From Bacteroidota bacterium (GTDB taxonomy: Bacteria > Bacteroidota > Bacteroidia > Bacteroidales > B18-G4), in the NCBI GenBank assembly GCA_013202965.1, contig JABMQZ010000127.1, positions 1-39,800 on the forward strand: DNA of 39,800 nt, in the 5' to 3' direction. The notes under the pieces are model-generated. The model was not told where the DNA came from, did not search any database, and saw only the letters and a list, made by a program, of their open reading frames with translations. This document shows, one piece after another, positions 27,998 to 39,258 of this stretch. The number at the start of each line of letters is the position of its first letter. The stretch's first letter is position 1. The position numbers and the translations under genes are program-made.

Positions 27998-30900
27998 CTA
28001 TATCCATTTTACCATTCCGGTTTCCTGTTTGTGAGCAATCAGGGGATTTGCAGGATACATCCTTATTGCATAATCCAGAACTCCCGCATGGTCAATGCCA
28101 AATTCACTGCTAAAGGTGGCAATCCCATCATGTACCTCCCCGATACCAAGGGGTTTTGAAAAGAGAATATCCTCCATACGGTCATTCACTCTTTGCCCAA
28201 AAACAAGCTCCATGCCAATATCTTCAGGAGCAATTTCACCAAATGCCACTTTTACTTCTGCTTTGAACAAGTCTCCGAATCTAAGTGCCCGCTTTGAAGA
28301 GTCGGGAACTTTTACTGATTTGATCACAATCTCATGCCAGTGCCTGTTCAGCTTTTCTTTCCATTCAGAAATACTTCTTGCTTTGCTGCAATTATCTTTC
28401 ATCATGTCTGCAGCTCTTTCTGCAAGGGGCTCATAATATTTCGACTTATACTCATCCAGCATCCTCTTCATGGTAAACTCATGGCTGATCCCTGCTGTTG
28501 AGTTTTTAATATACCTCAGCCATTCCATGGGAATACCATCTTTGCCAGTAGCATAAAAACGTGGAATAATATCAGCTTCCAGTATATTGTAGATGGTTTC
28601 AGCATCCAGTTCGTCCTGAAATTGCTGATTTTCGTATGTCTTTTTTTCAGGGATGGCCCAACCGGCTTCAGGCTGATATCCTTCAGCCCACCAGCCATCA
28701 AGAACACTGAAGTTCAACACCCCATTCATCACGGCTTTCATCCCACTGGTGCCGGAGGCCTCAAGCGGGCGCATCGGTGTATTAAACCATACATCTACCC
28801 CCTGAACAAGTTTCCGGGCCACATGCATATCGTAATTCTCAATAAAAACGATCCTTCCTTCAAATTCAGCTTTTCTTGAAATTTCTATGATATGACGGAT
28901 CAGGTCCTGCCCTGCCTTATCATTGGGATGGGCCTTGCCTGCAAAGATGAACTGTACCGGCTGCCTGGCATGATTCACGATCCCGGCAAGCCTCTTTTCA
29001 TTCCTGAACAGCAAATGCGCCCTCTTATAAGTTGCAAAACGCCTGGCAAATCCAATCGTCAGGATATTTTCATCCAGGCGGTCTATGGTATTGAGAATAT
29101 GTTGCGGGGCTTCCTGGCGGGAAGTCATATTTTCCTTTAGGCGGTTTTTCAGAAAATCAAATAATTCTTTTTTTAATTCCTTGCGGATATTCCAGATCAC
29201 ATCAGCAGGTACATCCTGTATCTTTTCCCAGCGCTTTGCCTCCGACTGATGCTCATAAAAGTCTTCTCCAAACTCAGTTTCATACAATTTCCTCCAGATG
29301 CGGGAGGTCCATGTGCCATAATGAACCCCGTTGGTAACATGGCCAATATGCAGTTCGCCGGGAAAATAGCCAGGATACATCCCTGCAAACATTTTCCGTG
29401 ATTCACTTCCGTGAATTTTACTCACAGCGTTCACTTCCTGTGAAAGTCTGGCTGCAAGCACACTCATTGAGAATTGTTCCTGCGTATTGTTGGCGTGGGT
29501 CCTGCCCAGGTTCATAAACTCATCCCAGGAAATATTCAGTCTGGCGGCATAATGAGGGATATAGGTCCTGAGCAAGTCTTCACTGAATGCATCATGCCCT
29601 GCAGGCACCGGAGTATGTGTAGTAAACAGGGTAGAAGACCTGACAATCTCCTTTGCCATGGAGAAACTGATGACACGATCCCGTATCAGGTGATGTATCC
29701 TTTCTATTCCAATGAATGCAGCATGGCCTTCATTGCAGTGATAGACTTTGGGCTTGATGTTTATGGCATCCAAAAGCCTGATCCCTCCCACTCCAAGCAG
29801 CAGTTCCTGCTTCAGGCGGTGCTCATTGTCGCCACCATATAATTGATGTGTGATCGTCCTGTCTTTTCCCTGGTTTTCTTCAATATCCGTATCCAACAAA
29901 TAAAGAGGCACCCGGCCAACATCAAGCCTCCACGCTTTGGCTATCAATGCCCGTCCGGGAAGTGCAATACTGATCTTCACCCAGTCCCCATTTTCGTCTC
30001 TTACAGGCTTTATGGGCAGATGGGTAAACTTCTGCGGAAGGTAATCTGCAATTTGTTCTCCGTGTGGAGAAAGTGTTTGACGAAAATACCCATAACGATA
30101 TAGTAAGCCAAGTCCGACCAGGCCAAGGTTTGAGTCACTGGCCTGCTTCAGGTAATCGCCGGCAAGGATTCCCAGCCCTCCGGAGTATATTTTCACAGAT
30201 TCGTGTAAGCCATATTCCATACTGAAATAGGAAATCAGGGATTTTCCGTTGCCGGGCTTCTCAGCCATATACGCATGGAATTTCTTCAGAACAATTTTAA
30301 GCAATGCTGTAAAATCCCTATCCTCTTCCAATTCCCTGTATCGTTCCAATGACACCATCTCAAGAAGGGCAACCGGATTATGGACACATTGCTCCCACTG
30401 CTCAGGATCAATTTTTCTGAATAGTTCTTCTGCTTCGCAGTTCCATGTCCACCAAAGATTTCTCGACAACTCATACAGGCCCTTAAGCCTGGCCGGAATC
30501 TCTGCTTTTACCAGCACTTTTCCCCATATGGGGGAATTATCAGTCTGTTGAGCCGGAATATATTCCCTCAGTCTGAACTGCTGTTGTTTTCCACGGAACA
30601 ATTCTGAGCGGTATCCGACCTTTTCCAGTGCAACAGACCAGACTTGTCTGTAATTCTCAATAAATGAATCCCATAAAGCATTTCTGGATATTTCCCAGGC
30701 CTCGCGTCCCGATGCCTGATATTCTTTTTTATTCTTGTTCAGGAAGCGAAGCAGAACATTATGAATGTCTTTTACAACCTCCTCATCGTTATCATCCCTC
30801 CTTTCAGAAACGACCACGCCATCATGTTGCACCCGGTATCCGGCATTTACCCATGCCCCAAATCCTGCCAGAGAAGTTGTCAGTGTGGGAATACTGAATG

Positions 30901-32245
30901 CTATGCTCTCGAGAGGAGTATATCCCCAGGGCTCATAATAAGAGGGAAAGACCGAAAGATCGAAGCCGATCAGTGTATCATAATATGGCATATTAAAAAT
31001 TCCATCCCTGCCATCAAGATATGCCGGAACAAAAATAACAAACACATTGCTCCCGGCAGTATTGTTTAAGCCTTTCTCAACAAAACGTTTCACAGAAGGG
31101 TCTTCATCCTGGTCGAAAAGATAATGTGAAAGCCAGGGCTGCTCAACATGGCCATAGCTATGGTCTCTCAGCCGTTCGACAACATCCTGTCGTGGCCCGG
31201 CCTGGTTGGCAGGAACCGTAATAAATGCAATGACTTTCCGCGGAAGTTTTTGATTCTTATTCAGGATCGCCAGTCCGTCAATAAACAGATCTATGCCTTT
31301 ATTCCTGAACTCGTAACGCCCGCTATTGATAACGAGCAGGCTATCCTCCGGCAGTTCCAGTCCACACACTGCTTCAGCAACCTCAATAATTTTCTTCCTG
31401 GCATCTGCTCTTTTTTGCTGAAACGCTTCTTTTTCCGGCACAAAGGTATCTTCAAAGCCGTTCACGGTAATCACATCCGGGTCCTTATCAAGAAAATGCC
31501 TGCATTCGGCTGCCGTGATCTCACTCACTGTTGCAAAGCTGTCTGCCTCATTGGCCGAGATGCTTTCAAGTGATTGCTTGGCTGTAACACCAAAGTTTTT
31601 TGCCGTCTGTACAGGTTCATAGCTTTCCAGCTTAGCGTAAAGTGGAAGACCGTTACCGGCAACAGACCTTCCCAGGGCAGTGGCATGGGTTGTAAATACG
31701 GTCCCAACCTGTGGTACATTTTCTTTGAGGTACAATACTCCTGTACCTGTCATCCACTCATGAAATTGCGCGACGATCCTGTCTGATGCCGAAAGGTTGA
31801 ACTCATAAAAGCTTTCAATAACTTTAGCAGCGGCATAGCCAAACATTGCCGGCTCTATGTAGTCCCATTGCCCGGACAGGGAATCCAGTTTAAACTGCTC
31901 CCAGAGGTCGAAGAATATCTGATCCTTCTCGCTAAATAATGGTGTAAAGTCAAGAAGGATGACAATTGGACGGCCACTTACATTCCATCTTCCTGTCCTG
32001 ATGTTCAATCCCTCGGCTGCCGCCTTTTCGCGCCATGAAGCGAAAATATTCTGATCTTCAATAAAATCGGGATGCTCACGTGTTTCCATCCATACGTCGG
32101 GGCCGATAAGTATATATTTATCGTGGTACTCCTCCACTATGGTTCTGGCCTTGGTTGACAGGACGGTATATATGCCACCAACTTTGTTGCAGATTTCCCA
32201 GCTGGTTTCAAAAATATAATCAGGTTTTATGATCTGGTCGTTCAT
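27998..32245 (-). CDS. Glycogen synthase (GT3-like) - alpha-glucan phosphorylase (GT35) fusion
   Basis: A 1415-residue bifunctional protein. Residues 1 to about 555 resemble the eukaryotic-type glycogen synthase (FETSWEICNKVGGIYTVLST, K21-VGG; later PSYYEPWGYTPLESIAFSIPT at the nucleotide-sugar site). From about 570 the chain is an alpha-glucan phosphorylase: a DUF3417-like start (LYELSRNLWWTWNCEAEELF), FSMEYGLHESVKIYSGGLG, and the PLP site EASGTSGMKAVMNGVLNFS near residue 1170 with its lysine. The two halves catalyse opposite processes, chain elongation from nucleotide-glucose and phosphorolysis to glucose-1-phosphate. The reading frame is continuous, with no sign of a split or frameshift. 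It lies 118 bp downstream of the GDE-GT4-GH57-SDR run and has its own candidate promoter. Confidence 0.93.
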   Translation of the reverse strand: MNDQIIKPDYIFETSWEICNKVGGIYTVLSTKARTIVEEYHDKYILIGPDVWMETREHPDFIEDQNIFASWREKAAAEGLNIRTGRWNVSGRPIVILLDFTPLFSEKDQIFFDLWEQFKLDSLSGQWDYIEPAMFGYAAAKVIESFYEFNLSASDRIVAQFHEWMTGTGVLYLKENVPQVGTVFTTHATALGRSVAGNGLPLYAKLESYEPVQTAKNFGVTAKQSLESISANEADSFATVSEITAAECRHFLDKDPDVITVNGFEDTFVPEKEAFQQKRADARKKIIEVAEAVCGLELPEDSLLVINSGRYEFRNKGIDLFIDGLAILNKNQKLPRKVIAFITVPANQAGPRQDVVERLRDHSYGHVEQPWLSHYLFDQDEDPSVKRFVEKGLNNTAGSNVFVIFVPAYLDGRDGIFNMPYYDTLIGFDLSVFPSYYEPWGYTPLESIAFSIPTLTTSLAGFGAWVNAGYRVQHDGVVVSERRDDNDEEVVKDIHNVLLRFLNKNKKEYQASGREAWEISRNALWDSFIENYRQVWSVALEKVGYRSELFRGKQQQFRLREYIPAQQTDNSPIWGKVLVKAEIPARLKGLYELSRNLWWTWNCEAEELFRKIDPEQWEQCVHNPVALLEMVSLERYRELEEDRDFTALLKIVLKKFHAYMAEKPGNGKSLISYFSMEYGLHESVKIYSGGLGILAGDYLKQASDSNLGLVGLGLLYRYGYFRQTLSPHGEQIADYLPQKFTHLPIKPVRDENGDWVKISIALPGRALIAKAWRLDVGRVPLYLLDTDIEENQGKDRTITHQLYGGDNEHRLKQELLLGVGGIRLLDAINIKPKVYHCNEGHAAFIGIERIHHLIRDRVISFSMAKEIVRSSTLFTTHTPVPAGHDAFSEDLLRTYIPHYAARLNISWDEFMNLGRTHANNTQEQFSMSVLAARLSQEVNAVSKIHGSESRKMFAGMYPGYFPGELHIGHVTNGVHYGTWTSRIWRKLYETEFGEDFYEHQSEAKRWEKIQDVPADVIWNIRKELKKELFDFLKNRLKENMTSRQEAPQHILNTIDRLDENILTIGFARRFATYKRAHLLFRNEKRLAGIVNHARQPVQFIFAGKAHPNDKAGQDLIRHIIEISRKAEFEGRIVFIENYDMHVARKLVQGVDVWFNTPMRPLEASGTSGMKAVMNGVLNFSVLDGWWAEGYQPEAGWAIPEKKTYENQQFQDELDAETIYNILEADIIPRFYATGKDGIPMEWLRYIKNSTAGISHEFTMKRMLDEYKSKYYEPLAERAADMMKDNCSKARSISEWKEKLNRHWHEIVIKSVKVPDSSKRALRFGDLFKAEVKVAFGEIAPEDIGMELVFGQRVNDRMEDILFSKPLGIGEVHDGIATFSSEFGIDHAGVLDYAIRMYPANPLIAHKQETGMVKWI

Positions 32246-32363: not shown

Positions 32364-33140
32364 TCATCCCAGGGAATAGCGGCTTGCGCCTCCATCAACG
32401 GAGAAAACCTGCCCGGTCACAAATCCGGACAATGGAGAAAGAAGCCATGCGGCAAGAGATGCAAAATCATCCGGATTGCCGATTCTGCCTGCCGGGATCT
32501 GGCCAATGGTCTGTTCTCTTGCTTGTCCGAAAGTGATTCTCTCCAGCGCACTTTTCTTTTTAAACAACCTGTCGATGGCAGAAGTTTCATGATAACCGGG
32601 AGCTATCAGGTTCACGCCAATGCCATCGCCTGCCACTTCAAGTGAGAGGGTTTTTGCCATTCCGGCCACAGCCATTCTTATTGAATTACTCAGCACCAGG
32701 TTTTCAATGGGTTGTTTCACTGTTGAGCTTTCGCTGAACAGGATTCTGCCATATGCCTGTTCTTTAAAGACGGGAATAAGTTTTTTTATCAGCAAAACCT
32801 TCCATCTCAGCAATAAGCCATAGGCATCATCCCAGTCCTCCATACTACTCTCCTCAAATGAACTTGCCGGTGGGCCTCCTGCATTCACGAACACCCCTGA
32901 AAGACTACGATTATTGAGTTTTTGAATGATCTCATCAATGGTTTGAGTATTACGGACATCGCCGTAGACACCTTCTGCTTTATCCGGATATTCAGCCAGG
33001 AGTTCCTGCAGTTTATCTTCTCTTCTTGCCACAGCGATCACAAAGGCATCATTTTCCAGCAGCGTTTTGGCAACAGCATGTCCCAGGCCGGAGCTTGCCC
33101 CTGTGACAACAAATAATTGTCCTTCAATTTTCAAATCCAT
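32364..33140 (-). CDS. Atypical short-chain dehydrogenase/reductase lacking the YxxxK motif
   Basis: 258 residues with an SDR Rossmann fold: TGASSGLG (13-20) and VNAGGPP (85-91). The C-terminal half, FASLAAWLLSPLSGFVTGQ then VFSVDGG, is normal. At the catalytic position, however, the sequence is NLVLSNSIRMAVAGMAKTL: aligned on the following glycine, the tyrosine is S151 and the lysine R155. Such SDRs exist as a recognisable subgroup and may be non-catalytic or use another mechanism. The gene starts 2 bp after the GH57 stop, so it is part of the glycogen operon. Substrate unknown. Confidence 0.88.
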   Translation of the reverse strand: MDLKIEGQLFVVTGASSGLGHAVAKTLLENDAFVIAVARREDKLQELLAEYPDKAEGVYGDVRNTQTIDEIIQKLNNRSLSGVFVNAGGPPASSFEESSMEDWDDAYGLLLRWKVLLIKKLIPVFKEQAYGRILFSESSTVKQPIENLVLSNSIRMAVAGMAKTLSLEVAGDGIGVNLIAPGYHETSAIDRLFKKKSALERITFGQAREQTIGQIPAGRIGNPDDFASLAAWLLSPLSGFVTGQVFSVDGGASRYSLG

Positions 33141-33142
33141 AA

Positions 33143-34342
33143 TTAATCTTTCGATGATGTATCCTGCTCAAGCCTGATCATGAAGTCGGAAAGGATATTC
33201 ATATAATTAATGAATGCTTCATAAGGTGTTCCGTATGGGTTGAAATACTTGTGAACATCGCCATCGGAGAACCATTTTGTACACATATAATAGAAATGGT
33301 CACTGGTTTGAAGGTATCTCCAATCGCGTAATATTTCCGGATCCTGACATTTTTTTACTTTTTCCCGAATGGAATACAGCTTATCAAAAGCCTCATCCTG
33401 CAGCTCATTGCCAAGCCAGGCCGTCAAATCCCTTTCTTCATCAGCCCAGGAAATGGGATAGGGTACATGTATGGCAGATACCGGTTGCAGCTTCTCTCCA
33501 AGTTCAGAAGGAGTATTAAATGTAAAGTCAGAATGTGAAAACACCCTTGCCGGCAAGGCTCTCATAAATTCAAAGATACCTGTTTCCGGCCATTGGTGTT
33601 CGCCAAAGGTTTCGTAATCCATGAAGAGATTCACGACCTCCTCACGCGGATCTATCTCATTCAGCCAACCCACGAATTTTTCAGTTGTCAATGGCCAATC
33701 CCCCCAACTTTGCTCCGAAAAGCGGAACGCGATATCATCACTCAGCCTGAAATTTTTCAGCAAAAGTTTAAGTTTCGGATTAATGGCGTTGGCATACATG
33801 TAGTTCGGGCTTTTCCAGCCAAGAACATGTTTGGCGCCTTCTGTAAGCATCAGCTTGAAGCCCATCTCTGCCACCATTTCTCCAATTTCATCAGAATAGA
33901 TCAGCTCGGTATTTCTGAAAGTTGTGGGCGTTTTCCCGAACAATTCTTCAATCTTTTTCCTATGAACACCCACCTGTTCTATGAATTCTTCCGTGCTTTT
34001 CAGAGATGGCAGCGCATGCGCATATGTTTCTGCAAGAAACTCCACATTACCGGTATCCGCCAATGCCCGAAAGCTGTCGAGCACATCCGGAGCATAGGCC
34101 TGAAACTGATCAAGGGCAGTACCTGAAATAGAAAAACTCACCTTAAAAGCAGAGCCGTATTCATTGATCATATCCAGTAACAGCCGGTTCATGGGCAGAT
34201 AACACTTATCAGCAACCCTTCGCATGATAAATCGGTTTTGCTGTTCATCATAATACTGATGGTTCGCACCAATATCGAAAAAACGATAAGTTCGCAGCCT
34301 GTATGGCTGATGTACCTGAAAATAAAAGCAAATTGACTTCAT
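33143..34342 (-). CDS. Glycoside hydrolase family 57 alpha-glucan enzyme
   Basis: 399 residues with GH57 hallmarks: CFYFQVHQPYRLR at the N-terminus, the probable nucleophile E146 in FRNTEL, and the probable acid/base D242 in FMDYETFGEHQ. GH57 includes alpha-amylases, 4-alpha-glucanotransferases and branching enzymes. The length and the QSWGDWPLTTEKF block fit the alpha-amylase-type members found with GT4 and debranching genes in Bacteroidota. No signal peptide is seen, so it acts on intracellular glycogen. It is the third gene of a four-gene run. Confidence 0.92.
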   Translation of the reverse strand: MKSICFYFQVHQPYRLRTYRFFDIGANHQYYDEQQNRFIMRRVADKCYLPMNRLLLDMINEYGSAFKVSFSISGTALDQFQAYAPDVLDSFRALADTGNVEFLAETYAHALPSLKSTEEFIEQVGVHRKKIEELFGKTPTTFRNTELIYSDEIGEMVAEMGFKLMLTEGAKHVLGWKSPNYMYANAINPKLKLLLKNFRLSDDIAFRFSEQSWGDWPLTTEKFVGWLNEIDPREEVVNLFMDYETFGEHQWPETGIFEFMRALPARVFSHSDFTFNTPSELGEKLQPVSAIHVPYPISWADEERDLTAWLGNELQDEAFDKLYSIREKVKKCQDPEILRDWRYLQTSDHFYYMCTKWFSDGDVHKYFNPYGTPYEAFINYMNILSDFMIRLEQDTSSKD

Positions 34343-34366: not shown

Positions 34367-35644
34367 TTATAAAACACTTTCATATACTTCTTTAACTTTG
34401 ATGGCTGCATTCTCCCACTTCAGGTTATCCACTTCTACTTTGCCATACTGTTTGAACATTTTCGAAAGGCCTTCATAATGCAAAAGCCCGTATATTGAAT
34501 CTGCCAGCGCATCAACATCCCAGAAATCCACTTTCAGGGCATGCACCAGTATTTCAGCAACCCCCGATTGTTTGGAGATCACCACCGGAACATTTGAACG
34601 CATAGCTTCGAGGGGAACAATTCCAAATGGCTCTGACACGGATGGCATCACAAACACATCACTGAGACCGAACATCCTGTCAACATCATCTCCCTTCAGG
34701 AATCCCGCAAAGTGAAAACGCTCACCCATTTTTAATTCGGCAATACGTTTTATGATCTTGTTGAGCATGTCTCCGCTGCCGGCCATAACAAAGCGGACAT
34801 TGGAATCCTTATCCAGGACTTTTCTCGCTGCTTCAACAAAATAATCAGGGCCTTTCTGAAAAGTGACCCTTCCGAGAAAAGTCACTACCTTTTCCCTGAC
34901 ACTACGTGGGTATTGCAAATTCGGCTTATCACTTGGCTCTACTGCATTGTATACAGTAAAAACCTTATCCGGGTTGATGCCGTATTTTTCAATGACAATA
35001 TTCCGGGTGAGGTTACTCACAGCCATTACCCTGTCGGCTACTTCCATGCCGTGCCTTTCAATGTCATAAACATTCTGGTTTACATTCTCTCCCGAGCGAT
35101 CGAATTCAGTGGCATGCATATGTACCACCAGCGGTTTCCCACTCACACTCTTTGCTGCAATTCCTGCAGAATATGTCAGCCAGTCGTGGGCATGGATTAC
35201 ATCAAAATCATTGGTAGCAGCAACGGCTGAAGCAACCAGTGCATAGCGTTTCACCTCATCCATCAGGTCGGCACCGTACTTTCCGGAGAATTCAAAGTTT
35301 TTTGATAATATGGCATCCTCACCGGACAAGGCCTCCATTTCACTGGCCTCTATCATCCTTTTAAATTCTTCCGGGCCCACATAAGGGATAAGGTTGGAAC
35401 CTATTTCCATATAGGTGATGCGGCGCCAGTATTCCTCATATTTGGAGTCCTTGAAATCAATACTGATATCGCTGGCATTGATAAGCCTGACAGCCTCCTG
35501 GTTTTCATCACCATAAGCTTTAGGCACCACAAACAGCACTTCCACATCATGCTTCATAAGGCCTTTGGTAAGGCCAAAGCATGCTGTACCAAGTCCTCCT
35601 GAGATATGCGGAGGGAATTCCCACCCAAACATTAAAACTTTCAT
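34367..35644 (-). CDS. GT4 glycosyltransferase, glycogen-locus type
   Basis: 425 residues from the ATG at 35642-35644 (a TTG two codons upstream is less likely). The start MKVLMFGWEFPPHISGGLG is the classic glycogen/starch-synthase-like opening that binds nucleotide sugar. VIHAHDWLTYSAGIAAK, then the C-terminal FLGRVTFQKGPDYFVEAA and SVSEPFGIVPLEAMRSNVPV, complete the GT-B fold. It probably elongates or primes alpha-glucan in the same pathway as its operon partners. Donor specificity cannot be read from sequence. It begins 18 bp after the debranching-enzyme stop. Confidence 0.9.
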   Translation of the reverse strand: MKVLMFGWEFPPHISGGLGTACFGLTKGLMKHDVEVLFVVPKAYGDENQEAVRLINASDISIDFKDSKYEEYWRRITYMEIGSNLIPYVGPEEFKRMIEASEMEALSGEDAILSKNFEFSGKYGADLMDEVKRYALVASAVAATNDFDVIHAHDWLTYSAGIAAKSVSGKPLVVHMHATEFDRSGENVNQNVYDIERHGMEVADRVMAVSNLTRNIVIEKYGINPDKVFTVYNAVEPSDKPNLQYPRSVREKVVTFLGRVTFQKGPDYFVEAARKVLDKDSNVRFVMAGSGDMLNKIIKRIAELKMGERFHFAGFLKGDDVDRMFGLSDVFVMPSVSEPFGIVPLEAMRSNVPVVISKQSGVAEILVHALKVDFWDVDALADSIYGLLHYEGLSKMFKQYGKVEVDNLKWENAAIKVKEVYESVL

Positions 35645-35662
35645 TGGCAATCTGCTATACTA

Positions 35663-37624
35663 TTAATTATCTTTTGTTTCTTTTTCATACTTTTCCAGCA
35701 ATTTATTCGTCCGCAACAATTCCGACACGCTCCAGGCCTGTGATATTGTTCCTCCCGGAAGGTGTGGCGGATCACCGTCATATACTTCAGATATGGAAGC
35801 GATACCTGCTTCCGTCATGACCTCTTCAAAGCCCTTATATAAATTCCTGATATACTCCACCCCTTCTTTCCCATGGATCCTCAGGTAGGCTTCAGCAAAA
35901 TGGCCGAAAAGCCAGGGCCATACCGTTCCCTGGTGATATGCCCTGTCGCGTTCAGGCTGGCTGCCGAAATAGACCCCTTTGTAATGAATATTTTTAGGAG
36001 AAAGTGTTCTCAACCCCCTTGCGGTCAAGAGTTCTTTCCTCACAACATTCACAATCGACATCCGCATGCCCTCGTCCACAAGCTGGTAAGGCAGGGAAGC
36101 GGCTATGATTTGATTTGGCCTTACAGACCAGTCTTTTGTATCTCCGTTTACATAATCGGCAAGATATCCTTTGCTTTCCTGCCAGAATACCTCCTGAAAG
36201 GAAGAAGGGATTTTCCCGGCCACAGTTTCCCATTTAGCGACAAACTTTTTATCACCGGCGGCAGCGGCCAGTTCCAGACTGAACATGATGGCATTATACC
36301 ACAGGGCGTTGATCTCTACAGCCAGTCCAATGCGGGGTGTAACGGCTTTTCCATCCACAACAGCATCCATCCACGTCAGGGCATGGCCTGCTTCGCCGGC
36401 CCAGATCAGGCCGTCATCCTGCATGTGAATATTAAAGTCGGTTCCTTTGCGGTAGCCGTCAAGGATCATTTTCATCTTTCGCCCGTATCTTTTCCATACC
36501 GCATCTTTTTCAGCGGTGTATTCTGTATATTGCTGCAAAGCCCAGAAAAACCATAATGGTGCATCCACCGAATTGTAAGCAGAATCACTCCCCTCCCCTA
36601 TATTCGGGAAAAGCGGCCCTTTCAGGTCGGCGAGCATCGAATCCAGAACTGCTTTACATGTTTTTGGGTCATCATTGGCAAGTGTTAAACCCGGCAGGGC
36701 AATGAATGTATCCCTTCCCCATCTTCCAAACCATGGAAAGCCCGCAATCACCCAGGTTTTTCCATCCCTTTTTATAATAAACTGTTGGGCGGAATTTCTG
36801 AGGCAATTCTCAAAATTGTCGCGTGGGGTCCTCTTTTTAACTTCTGCAGCAAATGAACGTTTTATTGCAGAAGGATTCACTTCGGAGGTAGCCGCACAAA
36901 ACACAATACTTTCTCCCTTTTTTATATCCACCTCATAGAAACCCGGCACAAACAGGTCTTCCTGGTAATCATAGCCGCGATCCATCTCTTCCTGGTATTC
37001 GATGTTGTAATACCAATCGGGGACATGTGTATATTCGGGTTCTTTGGAGAACTGCATAAACAGGGGAGTGTATCCATTGTACAGGCGCATCATCGTGCCA
37101 TTTGGTACTTTTGTAAACTTATCCTTGACATCAAAATTGGCTTTTGAAAGCCTGTGCACATTCCTGAATGCCAGGAATGGGGTAAGCCTCAGCCTGGTGG
37201 GCGAATTCGCCTCTTCCAGGGTATACCTGATAAAGACCCTGTCATGGGATTCGGCAAATATCATCTCCTTGCGAAGCACAACACCACCTACACGGTAAAC
37301 TGTATTTGGAATGGGTTCAGTATTGAAGTCGCGAATGTATTTATGCCCTCCCGGATTGTAAACACCACCGGCATATTTGTGGATACCCAGATTGAATTGG
37401 GCATCACGCTGAATGACCGTTTCATCGAGGTTAGACAAAAGAAGATGGTTCTCCTTGTCGATACCCGGCTGAGGAGTGATCAGCAAGCCGTGATATTTCC
37501 TGGTATTACAGCCTATAATGGTCCGGCTGGCATAAGCTCCTGCCCTGTTAGAGCGGATCAACTCCCTCTTGAGGGAATAGCCCAGGTTTATCAACTGCTT
37601 CTTATCAAATTCTATGTAGCTCAT
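35663..37624 (-). CDS. Glycogen debranching enzyme (GDE, GH133-type amylo-alpha-1,6-glucosidase)
   Basis: 653 residues with a GDE N-terminal domain (about 18-240: NRAGAYASRTIIGCNTRKYHGLL, LLLSNLDETV) and a C-terminal alpha/alpha-barrel GDE domain (about 275-650). The latter contains WFGRWGRDTFIALPG (near 298-312), DAPLWFFWALQQY and PNQIIAASLPY. It hydrolyses alpha-1,6 branch linkages in glycogen. The gene heads the GDE-GT4-GH57-SDR run, with spacings of 18, 24 and 2 bp, and is preceded by a TAnnTTTG element 39 bp upstream. Confidence 0.95.
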   Translation of the reverse strand: MSYIEFDKKQLINLGYSLKRELIRSNRAGAYASRTIIGCNTRKYHGLLITPQPGIDKENHLLLSNLDETVIQRDAQFNLGIHKYAGGVYNPGGHKYIRDFNTEPIPNTVYRVGGVVLRKEMIFAESHDRVFIRYTLEEANSPTRLRLTPFLAFRNVHRLSKANFDVKDKFTKVPNGTMMRLYNGYTPLFMQFSKEPEYTHVPDWYYNIEYQEEMDRGYDYQEDLFVPGFYEVDIKKGESIVFCAATSEVNPSAIKRSFAAEVKKRTPRDNFENCLRNSAQQFIIKRDGKTWVIAGFPWFGRWGRDTFIALPGLTLANDDPKTCKAVLDSMLADLKGPLFPNIGEGSDSAYNSVDAPLWFFWALQQYTEYTAEKDAVWKRYGRKMKMILDGYRKGTDFNIHMQDDGLIWAGEAGHALTWMDAVVDGKAVTPRIGLAVEINALWYNAIMFSLELAAAAGDKKFVAKWETVAGKIPSSFQEVFWQESKGYLADYVNGDTKDWSVRPNQIIAASLPYQLVDEGMRMSIVNVVRKELLTARGLRTLSPKNIHYKGVYFGSQPERDRAYHQGTVWPWLFGHFAEAYLRIHGKEGVEYIRNLYKGFEEVMTEAGIASISEVYDGDPPHLPGGTISQAWSVSELLRTNKLLEKYEKETKDN

Positions 37625-37818: not shown

Positions 37819-39117
37819 TTAAGCAAACCTCTCAGCTATATATTTCAACGCCTCCCTTATCTCCAGGCTGGCTGAACTTGGCCCGACACGAATATAAAAT
37901 TCTTCATCAAAGCCCTTTTGTTTAAGAAATACAGGCATCGGGCTGCGCATGCACCTCACCAGGCAAACGGTTCCACCGTTAATCTTTTCCAGCTCAGTCC
38001 GGATATAGGGTGTAAGCTCCTGTCCCATGGATGACTTGATCATATTCCAGAAGTGCAAGAGAAACTTATCGTCATTATCGAACTTATCAATTTCAATACC
38101 CTCTACCCTGCCATCGTCTTCCACACCGATCAGCAGCTGGCCTCCGCTTGAGTTCAGGAAGGCTGAAATTGTTTTCAGGCTGGCATGTTCAATGGCCGGG
38201 TTTTTCTTTTCCTGGCGGATGTCCCAGCGAAATGAAGTCTTGAATTCCAGGTTATAGCTCTCCCCTGCCCTGATGAGATCACTGATCCCTGCTTGCTGTT
38301 CGGGAGCATCACCCGTGTAGAAAGACAGATGTTCCATGGCTTTGATGGCCTGTTCGTGGAACAATTGGTAAGCATCTCCTATCCGGTCACGGTCAATCTC
38401 AGTAAATACAGCCTTTCCTTCAAAAATATCAAAGGGAGGATAAGGGCGATTTCCCAGCTCATAGTTCAGCTTGATGGTCAGTGCAGCATTGGCATATTCT
38501 GAAGGGGTAATCTTTCGTAATACCAGCATGAGCGGAAGCATTATGCCAGCCCTGTGCATACAGCTCAGCATATTCACAGCGGCTTTTTGTGAGGCCATGA
38601 GGCCTTCATAGACTTCTTTGATCAGTGAAAGCAATTCATCCACAGCAGGAGTATCTTCGAAGCGGCCTTCACTGATCTCATCAAGAAAGGCTGTCAGGCG
38701 GCGCCCAAGCTCCGGCATCCCCCAGAAAAGAAGGTTTAAAACCGCAGGATGATCTTCAAGGTATGTCAATGCTTTATCGGCATCCAGTAATGACTGCTTC
38801 GCCGCGGATTTCGTCTTCAATATGACGAGGGGGTCATGCATAAATGTCTGATCGAAAATCCTGTCAAGCGGGTCATCATCCTGTGCAATATGATCCTTTT
38901 GAAAACAGAAGATCGCAAAGCTGTTCACGCTGTACGGATCGATCTTTCCGTATATGGTCAATTTCACTAGAATATGCTTTAATAAACGAATATCCGGATC
39001 GGCGATCTCATTTCCTCCTGGACTTAAGAGTGGTTTCTCTTCATAATAGATCACGTGGTCATGATCGCGCATGACGAGGTCGAGTTTGCCGGGGTCTATG
39101 GGGTCGGGGTATTTCAT
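37819..39117 (-). CDS. AlbA_2 (Schlafen-type) nucleic-acid-binding domain protein with novel N-terminal region
   Basis: 432 residues from the ATG at 39115-39117; a TTG at 39177 would add 20. The C-terminal 150 residues (about 285-432) are an AlbA_2 domain: YNLEFKTSFRWD, LKTISAFLNSSGGQLLIGVE, DDGRVEGIEID, KFLLHFWNMIKSSMG and FYIRVGPSSASL. Such domains bind or cut nucleic acids in some Schlafen-like proteins. The N-terminal 280 residues are mostly helical and not recognised. There is no ATPase domain. The gene stands alone at the end of the glycogen region and diverges from a zinc-ribbon-like gene. A stress or defence role is only a guess. Confidence 0.8.
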   Translation of the reverse strand: MKYPDPIDPGKLDLVMRDHDHVIYYEEKPLLSPGGNEIADPDIRLLKHILVKLTIYGKIDPYSVNSFAIFCFQKDHIAQDDDPLDRIFDQTFMHDPLVILKTKSAAKQSLLDADKALTYLEDHPAVLNLLFWGMPELGRRLTAFLDEISEGRFEDTPAVDELLSLIKEVYEGLMASQKAAVNMLSCMHRAGIMLPLMLVLRKITPSEYANAALTIKLNYELGNRPYPPFDIFEGKAVFTEIDRDRIGDAYQLFHEQAIKAMEHLSFYTGDAPEQQAGISDLIRAGESYNLEFKTSFRWDIRQEKKNPAIEHASLKTISAFLNSSGGQLLIGVEDDGRVEGIEIDKFDNDDKFLLHFWNMIKSSMGQELTPYIRTELEKINGGTVCLVRCMRSPMPVFLKQKGFDEEFYIRVGPSSASLEIREALKYIAERFA

Positions 39118-39258
39118 GTTTTGCTTGTTTTGATCCGATAAAAATAACCTTAAATGCTGACATGCTTGTTCTATCAATCGAATATATTAATAAATTAGCA
39201 TACTTAATGTTTGCCCTTGCCCGAATTCGACCAAAAAAACAATTTTATCGAAAATCTT

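Follow-up and report, generated by a model that had tools for sequence, protein, structure and literature searches.

A glycogen synthase and an alpha-glucan phosphorylase joined in one gene of Bacteroidales

In the textbook view, glycogen synthesis and glycogen breakdown oppose each other, and regulation separates them. The window analysed here, a stretch of 39,800 nucleotides from a Bacteroidota bacterium (assembly GCA_013202965.1, contig JABMQZ010000127.1), carries one gene in which an enzyme of each kind is encoded in a single frame. This raises the question of whether both halves are working enzymes, how the joining arose, and whether the covalent link itself controls the direction of glycogen metabolism. 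The features of the locus are collected in Table 1.

Table 1. Features of the fused gene and of its neighbours in the window
Feature	Position	Strand	Remarks
Fused GT3 glycogen synthase-DUF3417/GT35 alpha-glucan phosphorylase gene	27998..32245	minus	1415 codons; domain matches
GT3 synthase half, residues 1-550	30596..32245	minus	R310, K316, E438, E446, H187 kept
Linker, residues 554-577	30515..30586	minus	22-26 residues, variable sequence, pLDDT <50 in both models
Phosphorylase half, about residues 576-1415	28001..30520	minus	DUF3417, TIGR02094, C-terminal beta domain; K1170, R1069, K1074, H877
SDR oxidoreductase	32364..33140	minus	between GH57 and fusion in the window
GH57 glycoside hydrolase	33143..34342	minus	conserved neighbour
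GT4 glycosyltransferase	34367..35650	minus	best NCBIfam match glgA_Coryne, below cut-off; conserved neighbour
Glycogen debranching enzyme (GDE), archaeal type	35663..37624	minus	TIGR01561, 392 bits, over cut-off; conserved neighbour

Domains and catalytic residues of the fused protein

The frame opens with an ATG on the minus strand and, as the preliminary description had it, runs without interruption through 1415 codons, with zero internal stops; in the domain search proposed there each half scored over its curated cut-off. PF05693 (Pfam) matched the GT3 half with 312 bits and an E-value of 9e-93 against a cut-off of 27, and TIGR02094 (NCBIfam) matched residues 671-1273 with 852.6 bits against a cut-off of 191.7, the whole model being covered. 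DUF3417 was found at residues 583-683 and a C-terminal beta domain at about residues 1305-1415; the protein consists of two complete halves, GT3 at about residues 10-550 and DUF3417/GT35 at about residues 575-1415. The model of classical glycogen phosphorylase, TIGR02093, reached 88 bits on the fusion, below its cut-off of 552.9. By these matches the phosphorylase half is a member of the DUF3417/TIGR02094 subfamily and only distantly kin to the muscle enzyme and to E. coli GlgP. The earlier assignment of a GT3-like synthase and a GT35 phosphorylase with its PLP-lysine motif was borne out by PF05693, TIGR02094 and the motif EASGTSGMK1170, and the completeness suggested for the synthase half by the motifs K21-VGG and E438...TPLE446. 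The fusion is a well-conserved joining of two known enzyme families.

Catalytic positions were compared after aligning 121 fused proteins. E438, E446, K316 and H187 of the synthase half were invariant and R310 was present in 120 of the 121; in the phosphorylase half K1170, E1162, R1069, K1074 and H877 were all invariant, and the same residues of both halves were retained in 20 split pairs, where the halves are separate genes. We take K1170 to be the PLP lysine, E438 and E446 to be the catalytic E-x7-E pair, R310 and K316 to be the arginine and lysine at the donor site, and R1069, K1074 and H877 to belong to the phosphate site; these roles are assigned from what is established for the GT3 and GT35 families. 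With the catalytic residues tested in either half almost fully conserved across the 121 fused proteins, two working enzymes are the best reading of the fusion. Loss of catalytic residues in one half, a possibility raised in the preliminary description, was looked for in these proteins and is ruled out. The lysine of the KVGG motif, K21, was replaced by methionine in 23 of the 121. These loci are L100, L104, L109, L113, L114 and 18 others, several of them rumen or horse-faeces records.

AlphaFold2 models were obtained for residues 1-1200 and 300-1415, with a mean pLDDT of 85-86 within the halves. The first resembled the GT3 structures 4qlb, 5suk and 8z0a, which were among its top matches (TM by target 0.70-0.79), and the second resembled 9l6i (TM by target 0.95), which the fold search lists as a Segatella copri glycogen phosphorylase.

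Gene neighbourhood and distribution of the fusion

The fusion closes a cassette with the order GDE-GT4-GH57-fusion; this holds for most of 80 named loci and for additional fused genomes that were inspected. The GT4 of the cassette was highly conserved in the loci inspected (57-79% identity), and none of its best 25 NCBIfam matches (0/25) reached the curated cut-off. The SDR gene of the window is probably an insertion into the cassette, because it is missing from this place in most relatives and occurs there only in near relatives of the window (2 of the 80 named loci). Directly upstream of the cassette, at 37819-39177 of the window, lies a 452-codon ORF with a Schlafen/AlbA_2 domain.

The window's assembly holds a single copy of the fusion, and the fusion was present in 9 of 9 genomes of the same family, two of them interrupted by contig ends. 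Across the order Bacteroidales a match was found in 267 of 295 sampled genomes, and at least 155 of the 295 carried the fused single frame. A sample of 296 genomes of the phylum gave no fusion besides the window's own among the matches listed, the best others being stand-alone phosphorylases. A scan of named genomes returned 80 loci, including the isolate Perlabentimonas gracilis; almost all bear the label Bacteroidales or Bacteroidota, and the order sampled is taken to be Bacteroidales by these labels. The census across Bacteroidota that had been suggested was thus carried out, and the earlier statement that similar fusions exist in the phylum holds, with a refinement: they are concentrated in one order and not phylum-wide in the sample, and a large clade of that order has adjacent genes instead. 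Relatives share this architecture over its full length, with identities of about 50-91%, and the frame is therefore far beyond chance.

A false merger of two genes through faulty sequencing or assembly, which the preliminary description had considered, is a negligible prospect. The window's genome is broken into 284 contigs, which could invite such an error; the same fusion was nevertheless found in many independent assemblies, including that of the isolate P. gracilis and the single-contig genomes G434, G523 and G513, by which an artefact is ruled out. Five genomes had been flagged for inner stops in otherwise fused frames. None of the five (0/5) has a stop at the linker, and in four of the five the coding region covered by the alignment is either free of stops or has one right at the beginning, at residue 4. 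At locus L231 (G487:C72) the fused gene contains one in-frame TGA at residue 463, either a sequencing error or the mark of a young pseudogene. A full fusion was also seen in a record filed as Candidatus Heimdallarchaeota (L118, NJBF01000091.1); its neighbour in the tree is the Bacteroidota record L119, and the contig is probably mis-binned.

Fused and split forms

At 33 loci the halves are encoded by neighbouring genes, arranged as in the fusion, and in nearly all of these the start codon of the second gene lies 170 bases or less from the stop of the first. In trees of either half the split loci group together, next to or nested within the fused forms; the phosphorylase tree places two stand-alone rows without synthase inside the split clade. 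Several independent fissions were considered and rejected because all two-gene loci fall in one clade; most of the "fused" hits in seemingly mixed families turned out to be adjacent genes read through stops.

The phosphorylase of Segatella copri also falls in the split clade, being 72% identical to L003. Its structure (PDB 9l6i, 20yr; released February 2026) aligns end to end with residues 569-1415 of the fusion at 887 bits; the fold alignment shows 47% identity, and the TM of the model is 0.95. Unlike the fusion, it is a separate protein without a synthase half. The TIGR02094/DUF3417 phosphorylases of other bacteria and archaea belong to the same family as the fusion's half (853 bits), and among the matches listed for the phylum sample they are stand-alone, again unlike the fusion.

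The fusion is old in Bacteroidales. Most likely it underwent a single fission, in the ancestor of a large clade to which Segatella copri belongs by its phosphorylase sequence, a history with moderate support. In the LG+F+R5 tree the fused rows L184, L185 and L193 stand beside the split clade with a bootstrap of 100, and the outgroup falls among other fused rows, its exact place being weakly supported. A tree that sets the fused forms against the split forms plus outgroup was worse by 39.9 lnL and was rejected at an AU p of 0.041. The split pair also lay outside the GDE-GT4-GH57 cassette in 5 of 5 regions checked. These observations speak against the opposite order of events, in which adjacent genes would be ancestral and fused once, with fused and split forms as sister groups. 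We consider that history rather doubtful, with some room left for it: the split genes keep the order of the fused halves, and a quick-tree test under LG+G4, on a poorly searched tree, did not reject the alternative rooting. It concerns history only and would be compatible with the mechanism preferred below. One old fusion followed by one fission is the tentatively favoured history.

Two families, f55 and f122, retained GDE-GT4-GH57-phosphorylase without the fused synthase half. The synthase would therefore be the more dispensable half, as these families lost it and kept the phosphorylase in the same operon. Together with the variation of K21, this is what can be said for only one half being at work, the synthase half having turned into a module that binds glycogen or acts as a scaffold for the phosphorylase, or the other way round. 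The (near-)invariance of the catalytic residues of both halves, in the 121 fused proteins as in the 20 split pairs, makes such a division of roles quite improbable. A lone, distant GT3 synthase (29% identity) was noticed in one f122 genome, G374, far from the cassette (L220:6035-7879); it is possibly a replacement.

Divergence of the two halves was compared in disjoint closest pairs at matched phosphorylase divergence. The median ratio of synthase to phosphorylase divergence was 1.61 in fused forms (51 disjoint pairs) versus 2.64 in split forms (15 pairs; Mann-Whitney p=3e-6, a value that overstates independence because the split form is one clade and the shift a single evolutionary contrast). 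The higher divergence of the synthase after the split fits a looser coupling, or a lineage effect.

Since one large clade carries the halves as adjacent genes, the covalent link is useful but dispensable. Bacteroidales have kept both opposing enzymes in one chain over a long evolution, and the clade with separate genes inside the same order allows linked and unlinked enzymes to be compared in nature. Through this contrast the general question of what advantage a covalent link between opposing enzymes brings becomes testable, and the solved split phosphorylase from Segatella copri is a starting point.

Linker, regulatory sites and proposed mechanism

Between fixed anchor points the linker measured 22-26 residues in all 111 of the 111 fused proteins measured. 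It is also the least conserved stretch of the fused protein, with a mean majority-residue frequency of 0.39 in the 121-protein alignment. Both AlphaFold2 models gave a pLDDT below 50 for about residues 554-577, and their pTM of 0.73-0.74 came without a settled arrangement of the halves. From these models the linker is read as a flexible tether of limited length.

Residues 10-545 of the fusion align with eukaryotic glycogen synthases (yeast Gsy2, human GYS1, 4qlb), with which the GT-B fold and the motifs KVGG, GRYEF..NKG and E-x7-E are held in common; the fusion differs from them by the attached phosphorylase and at two regulatory regions. In the alignment, the eukaryotic synthases have an arginine-rich regulatory helix (SRRQR in human, SRRQRIILRN in 4qlb), whereas the fused family showed no conserved basic cluster at the aligned positions 505-521, where the glucose-6-phosphate arginine cluster of the eukaryotic enzymes would lie. 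The eukaryotic insert, which serves tetramer contacts, is absent as well: the region at 345-371 has 27-28 residues in most fused proteins versus about 70 in human GYS1. With no basic cluster and a short insert region, activation by glucose-6-phosphate of the eukaryotic type is not expected from the sequence, and other effectors could still act. Known sites of reciprocal control are, by the same alignment, not supported in the fusion.

We propose that the fusion is probably bifunctional and acts in both directions of glycogen metabolism. Its N-terminal GT3 half would add glucose from a nucleotide sugar onto glycogen, UDP-glucose being the donor in this family, and the C-terminal DUF3417/GT35 half would release glucose as glucose-1-phosphate using PLP and phosphate. 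The halves may work independently of each other in catalysis, joined by a tether of about 24 residues whose length is constrained, and would be made as the last product of the GDE-GT4-GH57-fusion cassette. The covalent link would fix a 1:1 dose and hold both enzymes on the same granule, and the net direction would be set by substrate levels (nucleotide-glucose versus phosphate) and not by a switch of the eukaryotic type. Co-location, 1:1 dosage and substrate-driven direction are the most likely mechanism, for an old fusion that was most likely split once.

The preliminary description had raised the question of reciprocal control. Such control could be built into the link: binding or catalysis in one half would alter the other through an interdomain contact, and the link itself would act as the switch between synthesis and breakdown. 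We regard this as unlikely. The near-constant linker length in the 111 fused proteins could be explained in this way, and so could the smaller divergence of the synthase in fused than in split lineages (1.61 vs 2.64), as if fusion restrained the synthase. However, the rate shift comes from a single clade and could be an effect of that lineage, the linker is variable and predicted to be disordered with no settled arrangement of the halves (pTM 0.73-0.74), and f55 and f122 retain the phosphorylase but lack the synthase half fused to it. A reciprocal control residing in the link is so far unsupported: the eukaryotic regulatory sites are missing, the linker is predicted to be flexible, and one whole clade split the gene and dropped the link yet kept both enzymes. 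A self-contained reciprocal switch, in which the activity at one site would follow the state of the other by way of the tether or of a transient contact, and which would be lost where the gene is split, we hold to be improbable likewise. We know of no bacterium in which glycogen is controlled by such a switch. Direct reciprocal control is unsupported, and substrate-driven direction remains our preferred reading.

As far as we found, the fusion is without laboratory study: a search of open-licence papers yielded no paper describing the fusion and none on the structure of the Segatella copri phosphorylase. Other fused alpha-glucan enzymes, TreS-Mak/Pep2, MalQ-GlgB and GlgA-GlgB, have been reviewed (PMC11046441). 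Like the present fusion, they hold two glycogen-pathway enzymes per chain; none of them pairs a synthase with a phosphorylase, and passages of the review on GT3 in Bacteroidetes do not mention a synthase-phosphorylase fusion.

The surrounding pathway was also searched by profiles in the window's genome. None of glgC, galU and glgB was found over its curated cut-off in this assembly, which is 93% complete; this result, like the methionine at K21 in 23 of the 121 fused proteins, counts against the proposed bifunctional enzyme. A search with the PF01704 profile was uninformative, because no control gave a match. The nearest nucleotidyltransferases in the genome include RmlA, and the GH13 protein that comes closest to glgB has a T9SS sorting domain.
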